From positions 1-64,000 of the forward strand of contig JAJDAN010000028.1 of NCBI GenBank assembly GCA_029261855.1: a stretch of 64,000 nucleotides of DNA. The letters run 5' to 3'. This stretch comes from Deltaproteobacteria bacterium. GTDB taxonomy: Bacteria > Myxococcota_A > UBA9160 > UBA4427. Position 1 is the first letter of the stretch. Every line of letters starts with the position of its first letter. Shown here piece after piece: positions 25,618 to 32,203 of the stretch. Under the pieces are notes generated by a model. The model ran no database searches. It was given only the letters and a program-made list of their open reading frames with translations, and had not been told where the DNA came from. A program made the translations under genes and the position numbers.

Positions 25618-28242
25618 TCACCTCGACTCGACCGCGCCCTTCGCTTCGAGATACGCGCGAGCGGGCGCGTTGCCCGGGTCGAGCTCGAGGACTCGTCGAA
25701 ACAGCGCGACGGCGTGAGGCTCGCGGTATGCGTAGTGCGAGTAGACCGATGCCAGGCCGTAGTAGAAGCCCGCGCGCAAGGGCTCGGGAAGCACCAGCGG
25801 GGGCACGGCTCCCCGCGCCGCCCCCACCAACGAAGCCGCTCGCTCTTCGACTCCCGCGTGGGGGTCCGTGTAGAGGTGCCGGGGCAGCGAGAACTCGAGA
25901 ACCGGCCGATCGTCGGTGTGCAGGGGCCCGTCGCCAACGAAGCGCAGCAGATCCGCGCCCCCCACGAGCCGGAGGTTCAGGAAGTGGAAGATCGTCTCGA
26001 TTCCGGCGCGCTTCAGGGACGCCGGGTCGGAGTGCGACGCGAGCCGATCGAAGAGCCGCTCGGCGTCGATCGCGATGGGTCGTTTGGAGCAGATCAGCAC
26101 CAGATCCGTGGGCTCGTCGTGAGGCGCCCAGACGCTCACGTCCTCGAATACGTCCGTCACGGTGCGAAGGGCGATCTTCAACTCGTCGGGTGTTATGCGG
26201 TAGTTCTGCATCCAGATCGCGGCGACGCCACCGTCGGCGAGTCGGTCGGCGACACGCGCGAAGTACTCCCGTGTGAAAAGGCTGGAGGCGCCGCTGATCC
26301 AGGGGTCCGAAACCCCTGAAACGATGACGTCGTAGGACGCCTCGCCGACTGCAAGAAAGCTGCGGCCATCGGCCTGGAATAGCCGAACCCGGGGATCGCT
26401 CAGCGCGTCGTCGTGCGCCTCGGAGAAGTAGCTGGCGGCCTCGACGACCGCGGGCTCGATCTCCACCACGTCGACCTGCTCGACCGGGTAATCGAGCATC
26501 GCTCCCAGACTGACTCCCGTACCGAGGCCGACGAGCAACGCGCGACTCGGCTTCGGATGCAGCAGCATCGGAACGTGACCGAGCAGTGACCAGCTCGGCG
26601 CGTTGTCACCCACGCTGCCTTCCCACTTGCCGTTGGCCTGGTAGGCAATCCAGCTGCCGTCGCTCGCGCGTCGTACCGAGATCACCGCGTGCACGCCTTC
26701 GCGGTAGTAGAGAAGCTCATCGGTGGCTTCGCCCTGCCGGTAGGAACGCAAGAAGGGGTTGATCGCCGCCTGGTTCACATAGGGACCAAGCGTCATGCGT
26801 CGCGCATCCCAGCCCGGGACCAGCACGACGCAGACAGCGAACGCCAACGCGACGAGTGCCGCGCGCCAGGGCGATCGCTTGGTCGAGCGCCCCTGCTCGG
26901 GTTGGACCAGCAGCGCGCAGCCAAGGCTCGCGCTCAGCGCGGCCACGACGACGATCGAAGCCTGAATCCCGATGGCGGGCTGGAGGACGAAGCCGGCGAC
27001 GAGCGCACCACCGATCGACCCGAGCGTATTGGCGAGATAGAGATCGCCTACCTCCCGGCCCAGGGTCTCCGGGCGGCTCACACGGAGATGTGCCGCGATG
27101 GGAAGCGACGCACCGAGGCAGACGGTGGGTACGAACATCAGGGCGAAAGGGATCGACGACTGCAGCAGCGTAAGGGCCCAGAAGTCGGTCCCGACCGCCG
27201 CGAAGAGAGAAAGAAAGACGTCCGGCAGGCGACTGAAGAGAGGAATGGCGGCGAGGATCGAGAAGGCGAGCACCATCTGCAGTGCGGCGAGTGAGCGCAC
27301 CGCGCTGCCGCGGCGAAGCAGCCTTGGCGCGAGCAGCTCGCTTCCCAGCGCGAGCCCGGTGAGGAAGGTGCAGAGCATCACGGTGAAGGCGTAGACCGAA
27401 GACCCGAGAACGAGCGTCAGGACCCGGAACCACAACACCTCGCAAGCGAGCGCCGCAAAGCCGGAACCGGTCGCCACGACCAGGACGAGGGTCCGCAGCC
27501 GGCCAGGGATCGCGGGCGTGCGCGCCGCCTTGGCGCGGCGGTCGCGCTCGGCGACGGGCCTGACGGCGGCGGGAGCCGCGCGCGCCAGCAAGATGACACC
27601 CGCACCGATCACAACATCCAGTACGCCCGTCGCGGTCAAGGTCCCCGTGATTCCGAGCCAACGCAGCGCCGCGAATCCGGCCACCGCACAACCCACCACG
27701 CCGCCGAAGGTGTTCACCGCATAGAGCCGGCTGAAGTCGAACCCCAGGCGTGCCCCACTCGTCGCGACTCCGCGAACGACGAGTGGAAGCGTGGCGCCGG
27801 CCATCAGGGTCGGGGGCAGGAGAACCGCGGCCGCCAGCAGGAAGTGCTCGAGCTGGAAGGCCGCGTGGGCGAGATCCGACGGCCGAAGCCGGCTCGTCGC
27901 CACTCCGCCCATCCAATCGAAGAGGGCCGGGGTCGCCAGGCAGTAGATCCCGATCGCGATCTCGAGTGCACCGAAGAGCCGTAGCGGTCGTGAGACCCGG
28001 TCGGCGATGCGGCCTCCGAGTCCGCTGCCGAGGCCGAGTCCCAGCATGAAGACGCTGAGAACCGTCGAGACCGCGTACTGGGTGCTCCCGAAATGCAGCT
28101 CCAGCAGCCGGGCCCAGCTCGTCTCGTAGACGAGCGCGGTCGCCCCCGTCGAGAAGAAGCAGAGGATGACCCAGGCCGGCGCGGCCGTGGTCTCCGAATG
28201 CGGGCGGTCGCGTTCCAGAGGTCTTCGCCGCCGCCTCGCCAT
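25618..28242 (-). CDS. Transporter-like / spermidine-synthase-like fusion protein
   Basis: An ATG at 28242 after GGAGGCGG is preferred to the upstream TTG and gives 874 residues. The N-terminal half has about 10-14 hydrophobic helices with an MFS-like glycine-rich loop (LGSGLGGRIADRVSRPL). The cytoplasmic half has a Rossmann methyltransferase/spermidine-synthase fold with LLVGLGTGVSLGAM and VVEIEPAVVEAA. A short helical tail follows. These fusions are widespread in uncultured bacteria without a proven reaction. An aminopropyl transferase and exporter for polyamines is possible but unproven. Confidence 0.82.
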   Translation of the reverse strand: MARRRRRPLERDRPHSETTAAPAWVILCFFSTGATALVYETSWARLLELHFGSTQYAVSTVLSVFMLGLGLGSGLGGRIADRVSRPLRLFGALEIAIGIYCLATPALFDWMGGVATSRLRPSDLAHAAFQLEHFLLAAAVLLPPTLMAGATLPLVVRGVATSGARLGFDFSRLYAVNTFGGVVGCAVAGFAALRWLGITGTLTATGVLDVVIGAGVILLARAAPAAVRPVAERDRRAKAARTPAIPGRLRTLVLVVATGSGFAALACEVLWFRVLTLVLGSSVYAFTVMLCTFLTGLALGSELLAPRLLRRGSAVRSLAALQMVLAFSILAAIPLFSRLPDVFLSLFAAVGTDFWALTLLQSSIPFALMFVPTVCLGASLPIAAHLRVSRPETLGREVGDLYLANTLGSIGGALVAGFVLQPAIGIQASIVVVAALSASLGCALLVQPEQGRSTKRSPWRAALVALAFAVCVVLVPGWDARRMTLGPYVNQAAINPFLRSYRQGEATDELLYYREGVHAVISVRRASDGSWIAYQANGKWEGSVGDNAPSWSLLGHVPMLLHPKPSRALLVGLGTGVSLGAMLDYPVEQVDVVEIEPAVVEAASYFSEAHDDALSDPRVRLFQADGRSFLAVGEASYDVIVSGVSDPWISGASSLFTREYFARVADRLADGGVAAIWMQNYRITPDELKIALRTVTDVFEDVSVWAPHDEPTDLVLICSKRPIAIDAERLFDRLASHSDPASLKRAGIETIFHFLNLRLVGGADLLRFVGDGPLHTDDRPVLEFSLPRHLYTDPHAGVEERAASLVGAARGAVPPLVLPEPLRAGFYYGLASVYSHYAYREPHAVALFRRVLELDPGNAPARAYLEAKGAVESR

Positions 28243-28325
28243 CGAGCCGCCTCCACCGAAAGCAATCAAACGAGCAAATGGGTGTTAAAGGACCCGATCA
28301 AGTGCGTGATCGCGAGAAATTTTTG

Positions 28326-28366
28326 TTGACACTGAAGTGTAATCAGTGAGTACAATCATATTCACT
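28326..28366 (+). promoter_or_regulatory. Promoter with overlapping dyads upstream of the second TetR gene
   Basis: TTGACA (28326-28331) and TACAAT (28351-28356) are 19 bases apart. Two inverted repeats overlap them: ACACT-GA-AGTGT (28329-28340) and AGTGA/TCACT (28345-28349 and 28362-28366). This is a plausible autorepression operator for the TetR protein that starts at 28367. Confidence 0.55.
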
Positions 28367-29011
28367 ATGGATGAAAACGAAGTCAAGCCTCTCAAGCCCA
28401 CCAAGCGACCCCGTCGGAAGCCGCGCACCCCGAATCCCGAGGTGCGAGAACGCCTTCTCGCCGCAGCGAACGATCTGAGCACCGAACGCGGTCCCACCGA
28501 CATGCGGATCGACGAGGTGGCCGAGCGGGCAGGCGTCTCTGTCGGGACCTTCTACCTCTACTTCGACGGCAAGGACGATCTCTTCACCAGCCTCGTCGTC
28601 GACCACACCGCGCGCCTGCGGGAGCGCCTCTCCAAGGCGATGGCGGCCACGCCCCCTGGCAGCGACCCCGGGCAGCACCGGCTCGACGCGTACCTCGACT
28701 TCGTCGACGAGAACCAGCAGGCGTTCCTGTACTTCCTGCGCGCGGGAAGCATGGAAACCAACGTCGGAGATCTCAACAGCTGGGCCTTCGCCCAGCACGC
28801 CCTGGATGCCCGGCCCCTGATCGAGATGCTGCTGCCGGTAGGCAAGGCCAGCGAGATCGAACGGGAGCTGCTGATCCAGGCGACGTTGTCCGTCACACAG
28901 CATCTGGCCGGCTACTGGCTCCGGAACCAGGATCGAATCACGCGCGAAGACATCAAGCAGATCTTGGGGACGATGACCGGAGCGGTCATCGCTCACCTGA
29001 ACGCGCGCTAG
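28367..29011 (+). CDS. TetR-family transcriptional regulator
   Basis: The ATG at 28367 is chosen because the upstream GTG (28346) lies inside the promoter. The protein is 214 residues with a basic arm (KPTKRPRRKPR), a TetR helix-turn-helix (RIDEVAERAGVSVGTFYLYF, about 45-64) and a helical effector domain. It precedes the secreted PHM-like gene by 173 bases on the same strand and is divergent from the transporter/spermidine-synthase gene, so either may be its target. Dyads over its own promoter suggest autoregulation. Confidence 0.88.
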   Translation: MDENEVKPLKPTKRPRRKPRTPNPEVRERLLAAANDLSTERGPTDMRIDEVAERAGVSVGTFYLYFDGKDDLFTSLVVDHTARLRERLSKAMAATPPGSDPGQHRLDAYLDFVDENQQAFLYFLRAGSMETNVGDLNSWAFAQHALDARPLIEMLLPVGKASEIERELLIQATLSVTQHLAGYWLRNQDRITREDIKQILGTMTGAVIAHLNAR

Positions 29012-29184: not shown

Positions 29185-30285
29185 ATGCGCAGAAGCTCAC
29201 GTCTCATCATGACCGCCGCCTCGATCTGCTGGCTCCTCGGGGCCGGTGGACTGGCAAGCGCGGAAACCACGACCGTTCTATGGGGACCGTTTCCCATGCC
29301 TCCGGCGACCTCCGAAGGACCGGGAGATCTCGAGGGGATCTCAGGCACGTCGGGGCTCGCATCGTTCGTCGCGGGATTGCTCGGTGCCGAGGTCGATATC
29401 GGTCCCATCCCGAAGCCGTGTAGCAATTGCTACATCACGGCTGTTCGACCGAACATGGTCGACGCGAACGGCGACACCCTGAACTTCAACACCGGCGGCA
29501 TGCTCCACCACGTCCTGGTCGCCAACATCGACGAGCCCGACGTGTTCTGTCGTCCGGGCTTCTCCGGTGCCATCAATCTGATGGGATTGTTCGCCGGCGG
29601 CAACGAGCGTTTCTTCGCCGCAGGCAACGAGCGCACGCACTTCACCGAGCAGCCGGGCTACGGGTATCGCGTCGACTCGGGTGACGACTGGGTACTCGTC
29701 TACCACCTCATGAACATGCAGCCCGTGGCGCGCGACTTCTACTTCGAGATCGAGTTCGACCACGTCTCGAGTGGCGTCGAGGCGACGCGGCCGATGTGGG
29801 TCGACTTCGACCAGTGCGACGACTCGGAGCGCGACTCGCCGGTGGGCTACTCCGACGTCAACAAGTGGCAGTGGAAGTCCGACCGTTCGGGCTACATCCG
29901 AACGATCGGCGGCCATGTCCACGATCAGGGAATCAGCATTGCCTGGGAGAACGTCAGCCGCGGCAGCAACATCTACACCTCCGTCGCGGGCTATGCGGCC
30001 GGTGCCGGATCGGCGCCGGTGGGCCCTGGGTCTGGGACGGACGCGATGCATCCGACCGACTACAACATCGTCGGCTCCGACCCGCTGGGACTGGGCAGCT
30101 ACATGGGTCACATCGCGGACATGACCGTCGGATACCCGAACGGCCGCATCAAGAAGAAGAACAACATGGTGACCCACACGCAGTACCACCACAGCCAGAC
30201 CCCCGGTGAGGGGGAAGGTGACATGGGGATCATGATCGCCAGCTTCGACGAGGATTTCTGTATCACCGACTTCTGGTGCTTCTGA
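29185..30285 (+). CDS. Secreted protein with PHM/DBM-like copper-ligand spacing
   Basis: This 366-residue protein starts after AAAGGAGAAGG and has a Sec signal peptide (cleavage near LASAE). It contains HH at 108-109 (GGMLHHVLV), His174 (LVYHLMNMQP) and HxH at 244-246 (GGHVHDQG), with Met residues at 347 and 350 (GDMGIM). In animal peptidylglycine monooxygenase the copper ligands are His107/108/172 and His242/244 plus a later Met, almost the same spacing. Six or more Cys could form disulfides in the mature protein. I infer a type II copper monooxygenase-like protein outside the cytoplasm. Related actinobacterial secreted proteins are, as far as I know, unnamed. Confidence 0.75.
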   Translation: MRRSSRLIMTAASICWLLGAGGLASAETTTVLWGPFPMPPATSEGPGDLEGISGTSGLASFVAGLLGAEVDIGPIPKPCSNCYITAVRPNMVDANGDTLNFNTGGMLHHVLVANIDEPDVFCRPGFSGAINLMGLFAGGNERFFAAGNERTHFTEQPGYGYRVDSGDDWVLVYHLMNMQPVARDFYFEIEFDHVSSGVEATRPMWVDFDQCDDSERDSPVGYSDVNKWQWKSDRSGYIRTIGGHVHDQGISIAWENVSRGSNIYTSVAGYAAGAGSAPVGPGSGTDAMHPTDYNIVGSDPLGLGSYMGHIADMTVGYPNGRIKKKNNMVTHTQYHHSQTPGEGEGDMGIMIASFDEDFCITDFWCF

Positions 30286-30391: not shown

Positions 30392-30988
30392 ATGAAGCAG
30401 AAAGCCACGTTGGCGGTCCTCGTTCTCCTTTCCGCGGTCACGCTGACCTGGACTCTGTCGCCTCCGGGTCCGACCGCGCCGTCGACGGCAGCGCCGGTTT
30501 CGGCTCCAGCGCCGGCTACCCGCCCCGTGCCGATCCCGCCGCCGGAAGCGCGCGAAAGCCTCGTCTACCGCCGCCCCTCGCCGGAGGTCGTGGAGGAACT
30601 CTCCCGCAATCCCGAGACCGCGAAGCGGCTTCGCGAGCACGAGAAGCAGCTCGCCGCAACGCAGCGCTTCAGCGATGCCGTCGACGAAGGCAACTTCGAC
30701 GCAGAGGACCTGAACCGATCCGTCGTGTCCTTCTTCAAAACGATGGAGCTCGAGCCCGTCCTCGACGAGGAATCGATGATTCTCGGTCTCGAGATCCAGC
30801 ACATCTATTCGACCAGTCCGCTGCGCGAGACGTCGATCGTCGCGGGAGACCGGATCACCCACATCAACGACGAAGCCCTGCGCGACCCGGCAGACCTCCC
30901 GGCGCTCCTCGAAGGGCTCGAGCGTGACATGACACTGTGCGTCGACCGCGACGGCCGACACCACTGCGAGCGAATCTCTCTCGACTGA
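30392..30988 (+). CDS. PDZ-like, GspC-like periplasmic protein
   Basis: This 198-residue protein has an N-terminal membrane anchor, a long Pro/Ala-rich linker (about 25-55), a helical segment (60-110), and a C-terminal PDZ-like fold with the pattern ...SIVAGDRITHINDEAL typical of PDZ domains and the C-domain of type II secretion protein GspC. No other secretion genes are near. The anchor places the PDZ domain in the periplasm, where it probably binds a partner's C-terminus. The start has only a weak ribosome site. Confidence 0.6.
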   Translation: MKQKATLAVLVLLSAVTLTWTLSPPGPTAPSTAAPVSAPAPATRPVPIPPPEARESLVYRRPSPEVVEELSRNPETAKRLREHEKQLAATQRFSDAVDEGNFDAEDLNRSVVSFFKTMELEPVLDEESMILGLEIQHIYSTSPLRETSIVAGDRITHINDEALRDPADLPALLEGLERDMTLCVDRDGRHHCERISLD

Positions 30989-31005: not shown

Positions 31006-31269
31006 TCAGACCAGCTCCGCACCGATACCGGCGGCTCGGAGTGACGCCTCGTCGGGACCCCGTCCCGCACAGCACGCGGCGATCGCTCCATCGATGACGA
31101 CCGTAGGAACGGACTGGATCCCGAGCTGCCGCGAGCGCGCCGCGACGTCCGCATCGTTCATGTCGAGCACCGACACTTCGCACGACGGGCACGCGATGCT
31201 CTGGACAAGAGCGATGGTGGCCTGGCAGCTCGGGCAACCTGCTGAGAATATTTCGACTGTTCGGGTCAT
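31006..31269 (-). CDS. Thioredoxin/glutaredoxin-like small protein of the mer-type operon
   Basis: An ATG at 31269, overlapping the previous stop as ATGA and preceded by AGGAG, gives 87 residues. The N-terminal beta-alpha unit has GCPSCQ, then a second Cys pair region SIACPSCEV, then QSVPTVVIDG, whose cis-Pro (SVPT) is the thioredoxin-fold hallmark, and ACC near the C-terminus. It is probably a cytoplasmic metal- or disulfide-handling protein. It is the third gene of a MerR-controlled operon, in the place where MerP or a reductase would normally be. Confidence 0.78.
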   Translation of the reverse strand: MTRTVEIFSAGCPSCQATIALVQSIACPSCEVSVLDMNDADVAARSRQLGIQSVPTVVIDGAIAACCAGRGPDEASLRAAGIGAELV

Positions 31270-31733
31270 GATCTCGTCTCCTGTTCGAATCCCGGTGTAG
31301 GGGGCCCCGTCACACAACGGGAGCAAGCTCCCGTTTGCCTCGAGAGCGGCCACGTGTTCCAGACGGATGCCGCGAGGAGCAGCGTGATCCCGAGGTAGAG
31401 CGCGAGATCGCTCACGAAGACGAACTTTCCGCCGAGCCCCGCGATCGCTCCGGCGACCCCGAGCAGGAGCGGACCGAAGCCCCTATGCGTTGGCGCTCGG
31501 TAGGCCAGCGCAGCCAGAGCCAGCACGAGAAGCACCACTGCGACGGGCAGCAGAACACGTTCGGAGAACAAGAAGCCCAGCCCGAGCGATCCGAGAAACG
31601 CGGCGTAGGCCGGCCAGCAAGCGGGGCAGGTGCCGATCGGAAGCAGGAAGACTCCGCTCGCCGGTATGGAAGCGATGAGCCTCCCGAATCGGGGCGACTG
31701 CGTCGTGTCGGCTTCGACAGGTCCGTTCCTCAT
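31266..31733 (-). CDS. MerC-like membrane protein
   Basis: An ATG at 31733 overlaps the merR stop (ATGA) and gives 155 residues with about four hydrophobic helices. The first carries PIGTCPACWPAYAAFLG, a Cys pair inside the membrane as in MerC/MerT mercury-uptake proteins. Another Cys pair (GACSRCV) is near the C-terminus. It lies between MerR and the thioredoxin-like protein, with 4-base overlaps on both sides. I infer mercury or soft-metal transport; the exact Mer subfamily is not certain. Confidence 0.7.
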   Translation of the reverse strand: MRNGPVEADTTQSPRFGRLIASIPASGVFLLPIGTCPACWPAYAAFLGSLGLGFLFSERVLLPVAVVLLVLALAALAYRAPTHRGFGPLLLGVAGAIAGLGGKFVFVSDLALYLGITLLLAASVWNTWPLSRQTGACSRCVTGPPTPGFEQETRS

Positions 31734-32140
31734 CCGGCCACCTCGTCCGCCATGGCTTCGAGGATCGGACAGTCGGTCACGGGGCCTCTGCCGGAACACT
31801 GGGCGACGAGTCCTTCGAGCGCGGCCTTCATCCGGCGCAGATCCCTCAGCTTGTCTTCGATGTCCTCGAGCTTCGAGACGGCTCGGTGTCTGACCGTGCT
31901 GCAGCGGGCGTCCGAGGCGGTGCGAAGCGCGAGCAACTCGTCGACCTCGTCGAGCTTGAAGCCGAGTCCCTGGGCTCGCTTGATGAAGCGAACTCGCGGA
32001 ACGGTCTCGGCGGGATAGGCCCGGTAGTTGGACGCCGTGCGCGGTGGCTTCTCCACCAGCCCTCGCCGCTCGTAGTACCGAAGCGTCTCGACGTGTACTC
32101 CCGCGAGCCGCGCCACGTCCCCGATTTTCAGCTCGGACAT
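31730..32140 (-). CDS. merR: MerR-type mercury-responsive regulator
   Basis: The second of two adjacent ATGs (32140) is 7 bases from AGGAG and gives 136 residues. The N-terminal winged helix (LKIGDVARLAGVHVETLRYY) is followed by the dimer helix. Cys80, Cys115 and Cys124 (QCSGRGPVTDC) match the Hg(II)-binding Cys82/117/126 of Tn501 MerR with identical spacing. This is therefore likely a true mercury sensor, not a CueR or ZntR homologue. It is first in its own operon, in front of the MerC-like and thioredoxin-like genes. Confidence 0.88.
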   Translation of the reverse strand: MSELKIGDVARLAGVHVETLRYYERRGLVEKPPRTASNYRAYPAETVPRVRFIKRAQGLGFKLDEVDELLALRTASDARCSTVRHRAVSKLEDIEDKLRDLRRMKAALEGLVAQCSGRGPVTDCPILEAMADEVAG

Positions 32141-32171
32141 CATCGATCTCCTCGGTCGGGTCGAGTAGGGC

Positions 32172-32203
32172 AGTCTACAGCCCGTACCTGGGTACGAGGT
32201 CAA
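32172..32203 (-). promoter_or_regulatory. MerR-type promoter and operator
   Basis: On the minus strand TTGACC (32203-32198) and TAGACT (32177-32172) are 20 bases apart, the over-long spacer typical of MerR-activated promoters. The spacer contains the dyad CGTACC/GGTACG (32183-32196), which matches the core of the Tn501 mer operator. It drives the merR-led operon. Confidence 0.75.

Follow-up and report, generated by a model that had tools for sequence, protein, structure and literature searches.

A predicted secreted dicopper monooxygenase of the PHM/DBM fold, related to plant SURNod19, in a deltaproteobacterial genome

The two copper centres of PHM, CuH and CuM, each take one reducing equivalent from ascorbate for hydroxylation, and the H172A variant is inactive and without CuH (PMC6123673). 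In the related enzyme DBH, O2 is believed to bind at CuM, with CuH acting as the electron-transfer site (PMC4846438). A further protein that enters the present comparison, plant Nod19, has been investigated in connection with copper stress, nodulation and viral infection but has no known biochemical function (PMC3882225, PMC10326430), and the specific function of NOD19 has been described as still elusive (PMC10326430). Bean Nod19 is a target of miR398, goes up in copper excess and down in copper deficiency, and shares this microRNA with the copper enzyme CSD1 (PMC3882225).

We analysed a stretch of 64,000 nucleotides (the window) from a deltaproteobacterial genome, in which a sequence-only reading had proposed a gene for a secreted protein with the histidine and methionine pattern of PHM/DBM copper monooxygenases. 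The open reading frame is real, and HH108/109, H174, H244/H246 and M347 are all present at the positions claimed for them (Table 1). The complete set of histidines comprises residues 108, 109, 152, 174, 193, 244, 246, 289, 309, 331, 335 and 336. A signal peptide and several Cys had also been claimed; the N-terminus is indeed signal-peptide-like and the mature part contains six Cys, of which C79, C82, C122 and C211 are common to many relatives and C359 and C365 are confined to the clade of the window protein. Judging by its sequence, the protein is probably exported. The window genome (6.96 Mb in 91 contigs) holds a single copy of the gene.

Table 1. Features of the PHM-like gene, its product and its neighbours (positions in the window; residue numbers of the unprocessed protein)
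Feature	Position	Strand	Basis or remark
Fused MFS/spermidine-synthase-like protein	25618-28269	-	same place in G280
TetR-type regulator upstream, possible operon member	28346..29011	+	TetR_N E 5e-13; order and strand kept in G280
PHM-like (SURNod19-like) secreted protein gene, 366 aa	29185..30285	+	ORF, ATG start; 79%-identical homologue; homologues in Gammaproteobacteria and Actinomycetota
Sec-type signal peptide, residues 1-26 (MRRSSRLIMTAASICWLLGAGGLASA, cleavage before E)	29185..29262	+	inferred by reading the sequence
N-terminal jelly-roll (CuH-type) domain, about residues 27-197, boundary approximate	29263..29775	+	AlphaFold2 model and structural matches
His108-His109, predicted CuH ligands (PHM H107/H108)	29506..29511	+	invariant in 25 homologues; paired with PHM-family HH
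His174, predicted third CuH ligand (PHM H172)	29704..29706	+	paired with PHM-family His; column holds only M/H/D/E
C-terminal jelly-roll (CuM-type) domain, about residues 198-359, boundary approximate	29776..30261	+	AlphaFold2 model and structural matches
His244-x-His246, predicted CuM ligands (PHM H242/H244)	29914..29922	+	invariant in 25 homologues; paired with PHM-family HxH
Met347, predicted CuM ligand (PHM M314)	30223..30225	+	invariant in 25 homologues; paired with Met of DEMC motif
PDZ protein, 198 aa, one apparent N-terminal membrane segment, distant from GspC	30392..30988	+	PDZ matches below cut-off here, above in homologues
Thioredoxin-like, MerC-like and MerR-like genes in a row	31006-32203	-	likely small mercury- or metal-response cluster

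AlphaFold2 run on the single sequence gave an unusable model (pLDDT 28). With seven sequences, none of them taken from the genome-search loci, an all-beta model was obtained (pLDDT 67.7, pTM 0.69), in which the loops at about residues 269-285 and 290-315 have pLDDT below 50. Foldseek against solved structures returned PHM or DBH as 30 of the first 31 matches, with a best E of 6e-7. The structural aligner superimposed model residues 1-333 on PHM with a Z of 16.5 (rmsd 3.3 over 236 residues), followed by DBH at Z 15.5 and, as the next fold, PNGase F at Z 8.2, with the caveat that AlphaFold2's memory of PHM may have shaped the model. For the fold, the structural check proposed in the sequence-only reading thus yields a predicted pair of PHM/DBM beta-sandwich domains. 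The matches to PNGase F, capsid and GH172 structures were set aside as a shared double jelly-roll fold.

Single-sequence searches say little about this protein. No match was found in Pfam, NCBIfam or PHROGs, PF01082 and PF03712 included; the PDB sequence search gave nothing convincing (best hits, antibody light chains at E 0.011), and nothing came from plasmids, viral contigs or the genome-contig collection. Weak matches in the first search of the window's phylum (L003-L008) are attributed to chance, and the three inspected (L004, L005, L008) were short or lay in unrelated frames. The phylum sample yielded one close relative, with 79% identity, from a different family of the same order; its gene has the same neighbours as that of the window. 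A degenerate pattern built from the motif ER...GYGY.V...W..VY..N was then scanned over the collection of genome contigs. It found six stretches, all coding for homologues and all with the window's exact 87-base span, in an Alteromonadaceae MAG, a Moraxellaceae MAG, a Streptomyces, an Actinomycetota MAG and an Acidimicrobiales MAG (two copies). A profile of these homologues detected further members in the Streptomyces phylum (12 of 217 genomes) and in the Alteromonadaceae class (3 of 248 genomes), starting genomes included in both counts. When the window protein and its 79% homologue are left out of the family profile, that profile still gives the window protein 230 bits.

The family alignment comprises 25 members. 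Its invariant columns are H108, H109, G147, E149, W169, H244, H246, G249, M347 and I349, so that HH, HxH and Met, which make up five of the six ligands of PHM type, never vary; H152, which lies outside the proposed ligand set, is already absent from the 79%-identical homologue. The sixth position, 174, is occupied by Met in 14 members, His in seven, Asp in three and Glu in one, always a residue that would be capable of binding metal. His174 occurs in two clades, the window's own with four members (support 100/100) and a second one with three, and the states at this position require five changes on the family tree. Since PHM-family proteins, plant NOD19 and both His clades carry His, it is probably the ancestral residue. 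One Acidimicrobiales MAG of 2.2 Mb (G378, with loci L041, L044, L047, L051, L053 and L055) encodes four paralogues with PHM-like domains, several of which appear, when read by eye, to have N-terminal IPT/TIG-like repeats.

The link to PHM and DBM was sought through bacterial proteins of the PF03712 family. A profile search of 377 genomes sampled from the window's phylum found such proteins in 208, although not in the window's own genome. The statement in the sequence-only reading that a prokaryotic type II copper monooxygenase would be unusual therefore fails, because bacterial enzymes of this type are common in the phylum. The PF03712 proteins of the phylum sample (for example, L031 and L033) number up to nine or more per genome, and in some of them the monooxygenase domains are preceded by haem-c-like CxxCH motifs. 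In an alignment of 27 bacterial PF03712 proteins, the HH, H, HxH and Met are invariant, and a profile of these 27 proteins matches DBH (4e-56) and PHM (1e-47) in the PDB; the PDB search with the window family's own profile gave no match. Compared with each other, the family profile and the 27-protein profile aligned with a probability of 95.7% (E 8e-9), and all six ligand columns paired exactly: H108/H109 with H103/H104, H174 with H163, H244/H246 with H239/H241, and M347 with M312. An equivalent profile alignment scored 67.6 versus 13.8 +/- 2.8 (maximum 25.7) for 99 column-shuffled templates. A clear match required the profile of 25 sequences; profiles of two and four sequences gave marginal local matches (P 0.0024 and 0.025) in the right register, and the PF03712-protein profile gives the window protein 0.2 bits. 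The fold match, together with the column-by-column agreement of the six ligands with those in proteins of the PHM family, supports the PHM-type interpretation as regards the predicted fold and ligand set.

The claim of PHM-like spacing up to the HxH is borne out. From HH to HxH the distances are at most two residues off those of PHM, but Met347 lies 101 residues past the second His of HxH as against 70 in PHM, and the low-confidence loops of the model fall in this stretch. Shuffling the protein produced HH, H and HxH at PHM spacing (within three residues) in 61 of 400,000 shuffles. Spacing alone is nevertheless weak evidence, because it is also seen in three of the window's 210 open frames that reach 150 codons or more. 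It is conservation, not spacing, that settles the reality of the predicted ligand pattern.

The nearest named family of the window protein is plant SURNod19 (PF07712). The window protein itself has no PF07712 match; three relatives exceed the cut-off of 25 bits (L040 at 32.5, L060 at 33.4 and L054 at 38.8). The Arabidopsis NOD19 sequence used for the comparison was confirmed as PF07712 (E 9e-187 over 2-377 of 377 residues). The 25-member family profile detects this sequence at 70.7 bits in hmmsearch and aligns to it in hhalign with a probability of 97 and an E of 1e-10 over 267 columns covering both domains. All six ligand positions are paired between the family profile and NOD19, namely the HH, the His of NVH, the HxH and the Met. 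Our literature search found no paper that names Nod19 a copper monooxygenase, which is not proof of novelty.

Some relatives in Actinomycetota (L056, L063-L070) extend beyond the PHM-like domains by C-terminal tails of about 150 residues with W-H-T and C-x2-H-P-x-M-R-G motifs. In one Met174 clade, a cupredoxin-like stretch was present in nine of the nine tails read. Matches of the tails to Pfam (E 0.014-0.071) and to NCBIfam amicyanin (0.004) are all below cut-off. On motifs and subthreshold matches only, these tails may be cupredoxins, possibly acting as a built-in electron donor.

The order TetR gene, PHM-like gene and PDZ gene is found again in genome G280, with the divergent fused MFS/spermidine-synthase-like gene alongside. 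In three genomes, which belong to two lineages, the PDZ gene lies next to that of the PHM-like protein. In one of these, the Moraxellaceae MAG, it follows the PHM-like gene and encodes a protein 27% identical to that of the window (E 5e-24). By genome search, the PDZ protein is present in three of the four genomes of the window clade; it was not found in the fourth (Alteromonadaceae), nor in two relatives of the window without the PHM-like gene. Downstream of the Alteromonadaceae homologue lies a gene for a CHRD-domain protein with a PEP-CTERM sorting signal (L076 3251-3841). In G280, the gene adjoining the PDZ gene resembles a second MFS/spermidine-synthase-like gene and not MerC/MerR, and for this reason the metal genes of the window are probably not part of the PHM-like gene unit. 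No gene for a reductant, copper chaperone or substrate was recognised beside the PHM-like gene.

Taken as a whole, these data make it likely, with good though not complete confidence, that the window protein is a secreted or periplasmic dicopper monooxygenase with the type II (PHM/DBM) fold, on a separate branch with plant SURNod19, its predicted sites being CuH (H108, H109, H174) and CuM (H244, H246, M347). Copper binding, activity, reductant and substrate are all matters that we infer for this protein. By analogy with the described enzymes, the N-terminal domain would hold CuH as the electron-transfer copper, and the C-terminal domain would hold CuM, where O2 would bind and the substrate C-H would be hydroxylated, with two electrons supplied by an external reductant. 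The PDZ membrane protein would probably be a tether, or a partner recruiting substrate or the secretion machinery; such a tether or secretion-adaptor role is a guess, because the resemblance to GspC is weak (E 0.005). Relatives with Met, Asp or Glu at position 174 may have an altered CuH. Since most members are without His174 and the PHM H172A variant is inactive, much of the family may not carry out PHM chemistry.

This last point bears on the alternative that we rank highest, though we consider it rather unlikely: that the window protein uses the PHM fold to store, deliver, sense or detoxify periplasmic copper and is no oxygenase. The third CuH ligand is Met, Asp or Glu in 18 of the 25 family members, bean Nod19 follows the copper level (PMC3882225), and MerC- and MerR-type metal genes lie 1-2 kb away on the other strand. 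All six ligands are however kept in the window clade, and the CuM set of HxH and Met is invariant across the family, as would be expected for O2 chemistry; the metal genes, as the different neighbour in G280 indicates, probably lie outside the unit. A double jelly-roll protein of another type, for instance a hydrolase resembling PNGase F or a member of the DUF2961/GH172 type, with its His and Met residues there for other reasons, would share an architecture common to PNGase F, PHM and DUF2961 (PMC8812541), and PNGase F was the second-best fold. The Z for PHM is twice that for PNGase F, and the six PHM ligands are in register with five of them invariant, which makes such a protein very improbable.

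An equally small chance is left to the reading as a genuine peptidylglycine alpha-hydroxylating monooxygenase of bacteria, with glycine-extended peptides as its substrates; fold and ligand set would be the same. The residues R240, N316 and Y318 of PHM, which we take to be its contacts with the peptide carboxylate, align with G242, I349 and I351 of the window protein, and I349 is an invariant Ile in the family. Because these residues are replaced, the substrate should differ from that of PHM, and a glycine-extended peptide is probably not the substrate; of the neighbouring genes checked, none was recognisable as a lyase (PAL) gene. As far as the sequence tells, the protein is not PHM proper and belongs to a separate SURNod19-like branch. 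That the His/Met pattern arose by chance in an unrelated secreted protein is hardly credible: the long open frames of the window that meet the spacing lend this idea some colour, but it is already refuted by the invariance of ligands over 25 homologues and by the fold match, and the profile-profile match likewise speaks against it.

A broader proposal, to which we give even chances, is that, among type II copper monooxygenases, SURNod19 and a broad, mostly unannotated bacterial family together make up a branch of their own, the third alongside PHM and DBM. In this branch CuM would be invariant, the third CuH ligand would be exchanged among His, Met, Asp and Glu, and in some lineages a blue-copper-like domain fused to the protein would serve as a built-in donor of electrons; the window protein would represent an all-His clade with a PDZ membrane partner. 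The dicopper monooxygenase fold suggests a testable enzyme function for the whole family, Nod19 included, and the exchange among His, Met, Asp and Glu at CuH would amount to a natural mutagenesis series on the electron route to CuM.

In comparison with known systems, the window protein resembles PHM and DBH (PF01082 and PF03712) in its predicted two-domain fold and in having all six predicted copper ligands. It differs from them in that structural alignment gives only about 9-12% identity and a direct sequence match is absent, in the 31 additional residues between HxH and Met, and in its conserved PDZ neighbour. The tailed actinobacterial relatives (for example, L056, L063, L064 and L067) have the HH, HxH and MGI core and fit the family profile as the window protein does, but carry Met at position 174 and the cupredoxin-like tail. 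Plant NOD19 has a signal peptide (PMC10326430), as the window protein appears to have; unlike the window protein, it has insertions, one of them just past the equivalent of H174, and a C-terminal hydrophobic helix (PMC10326430).
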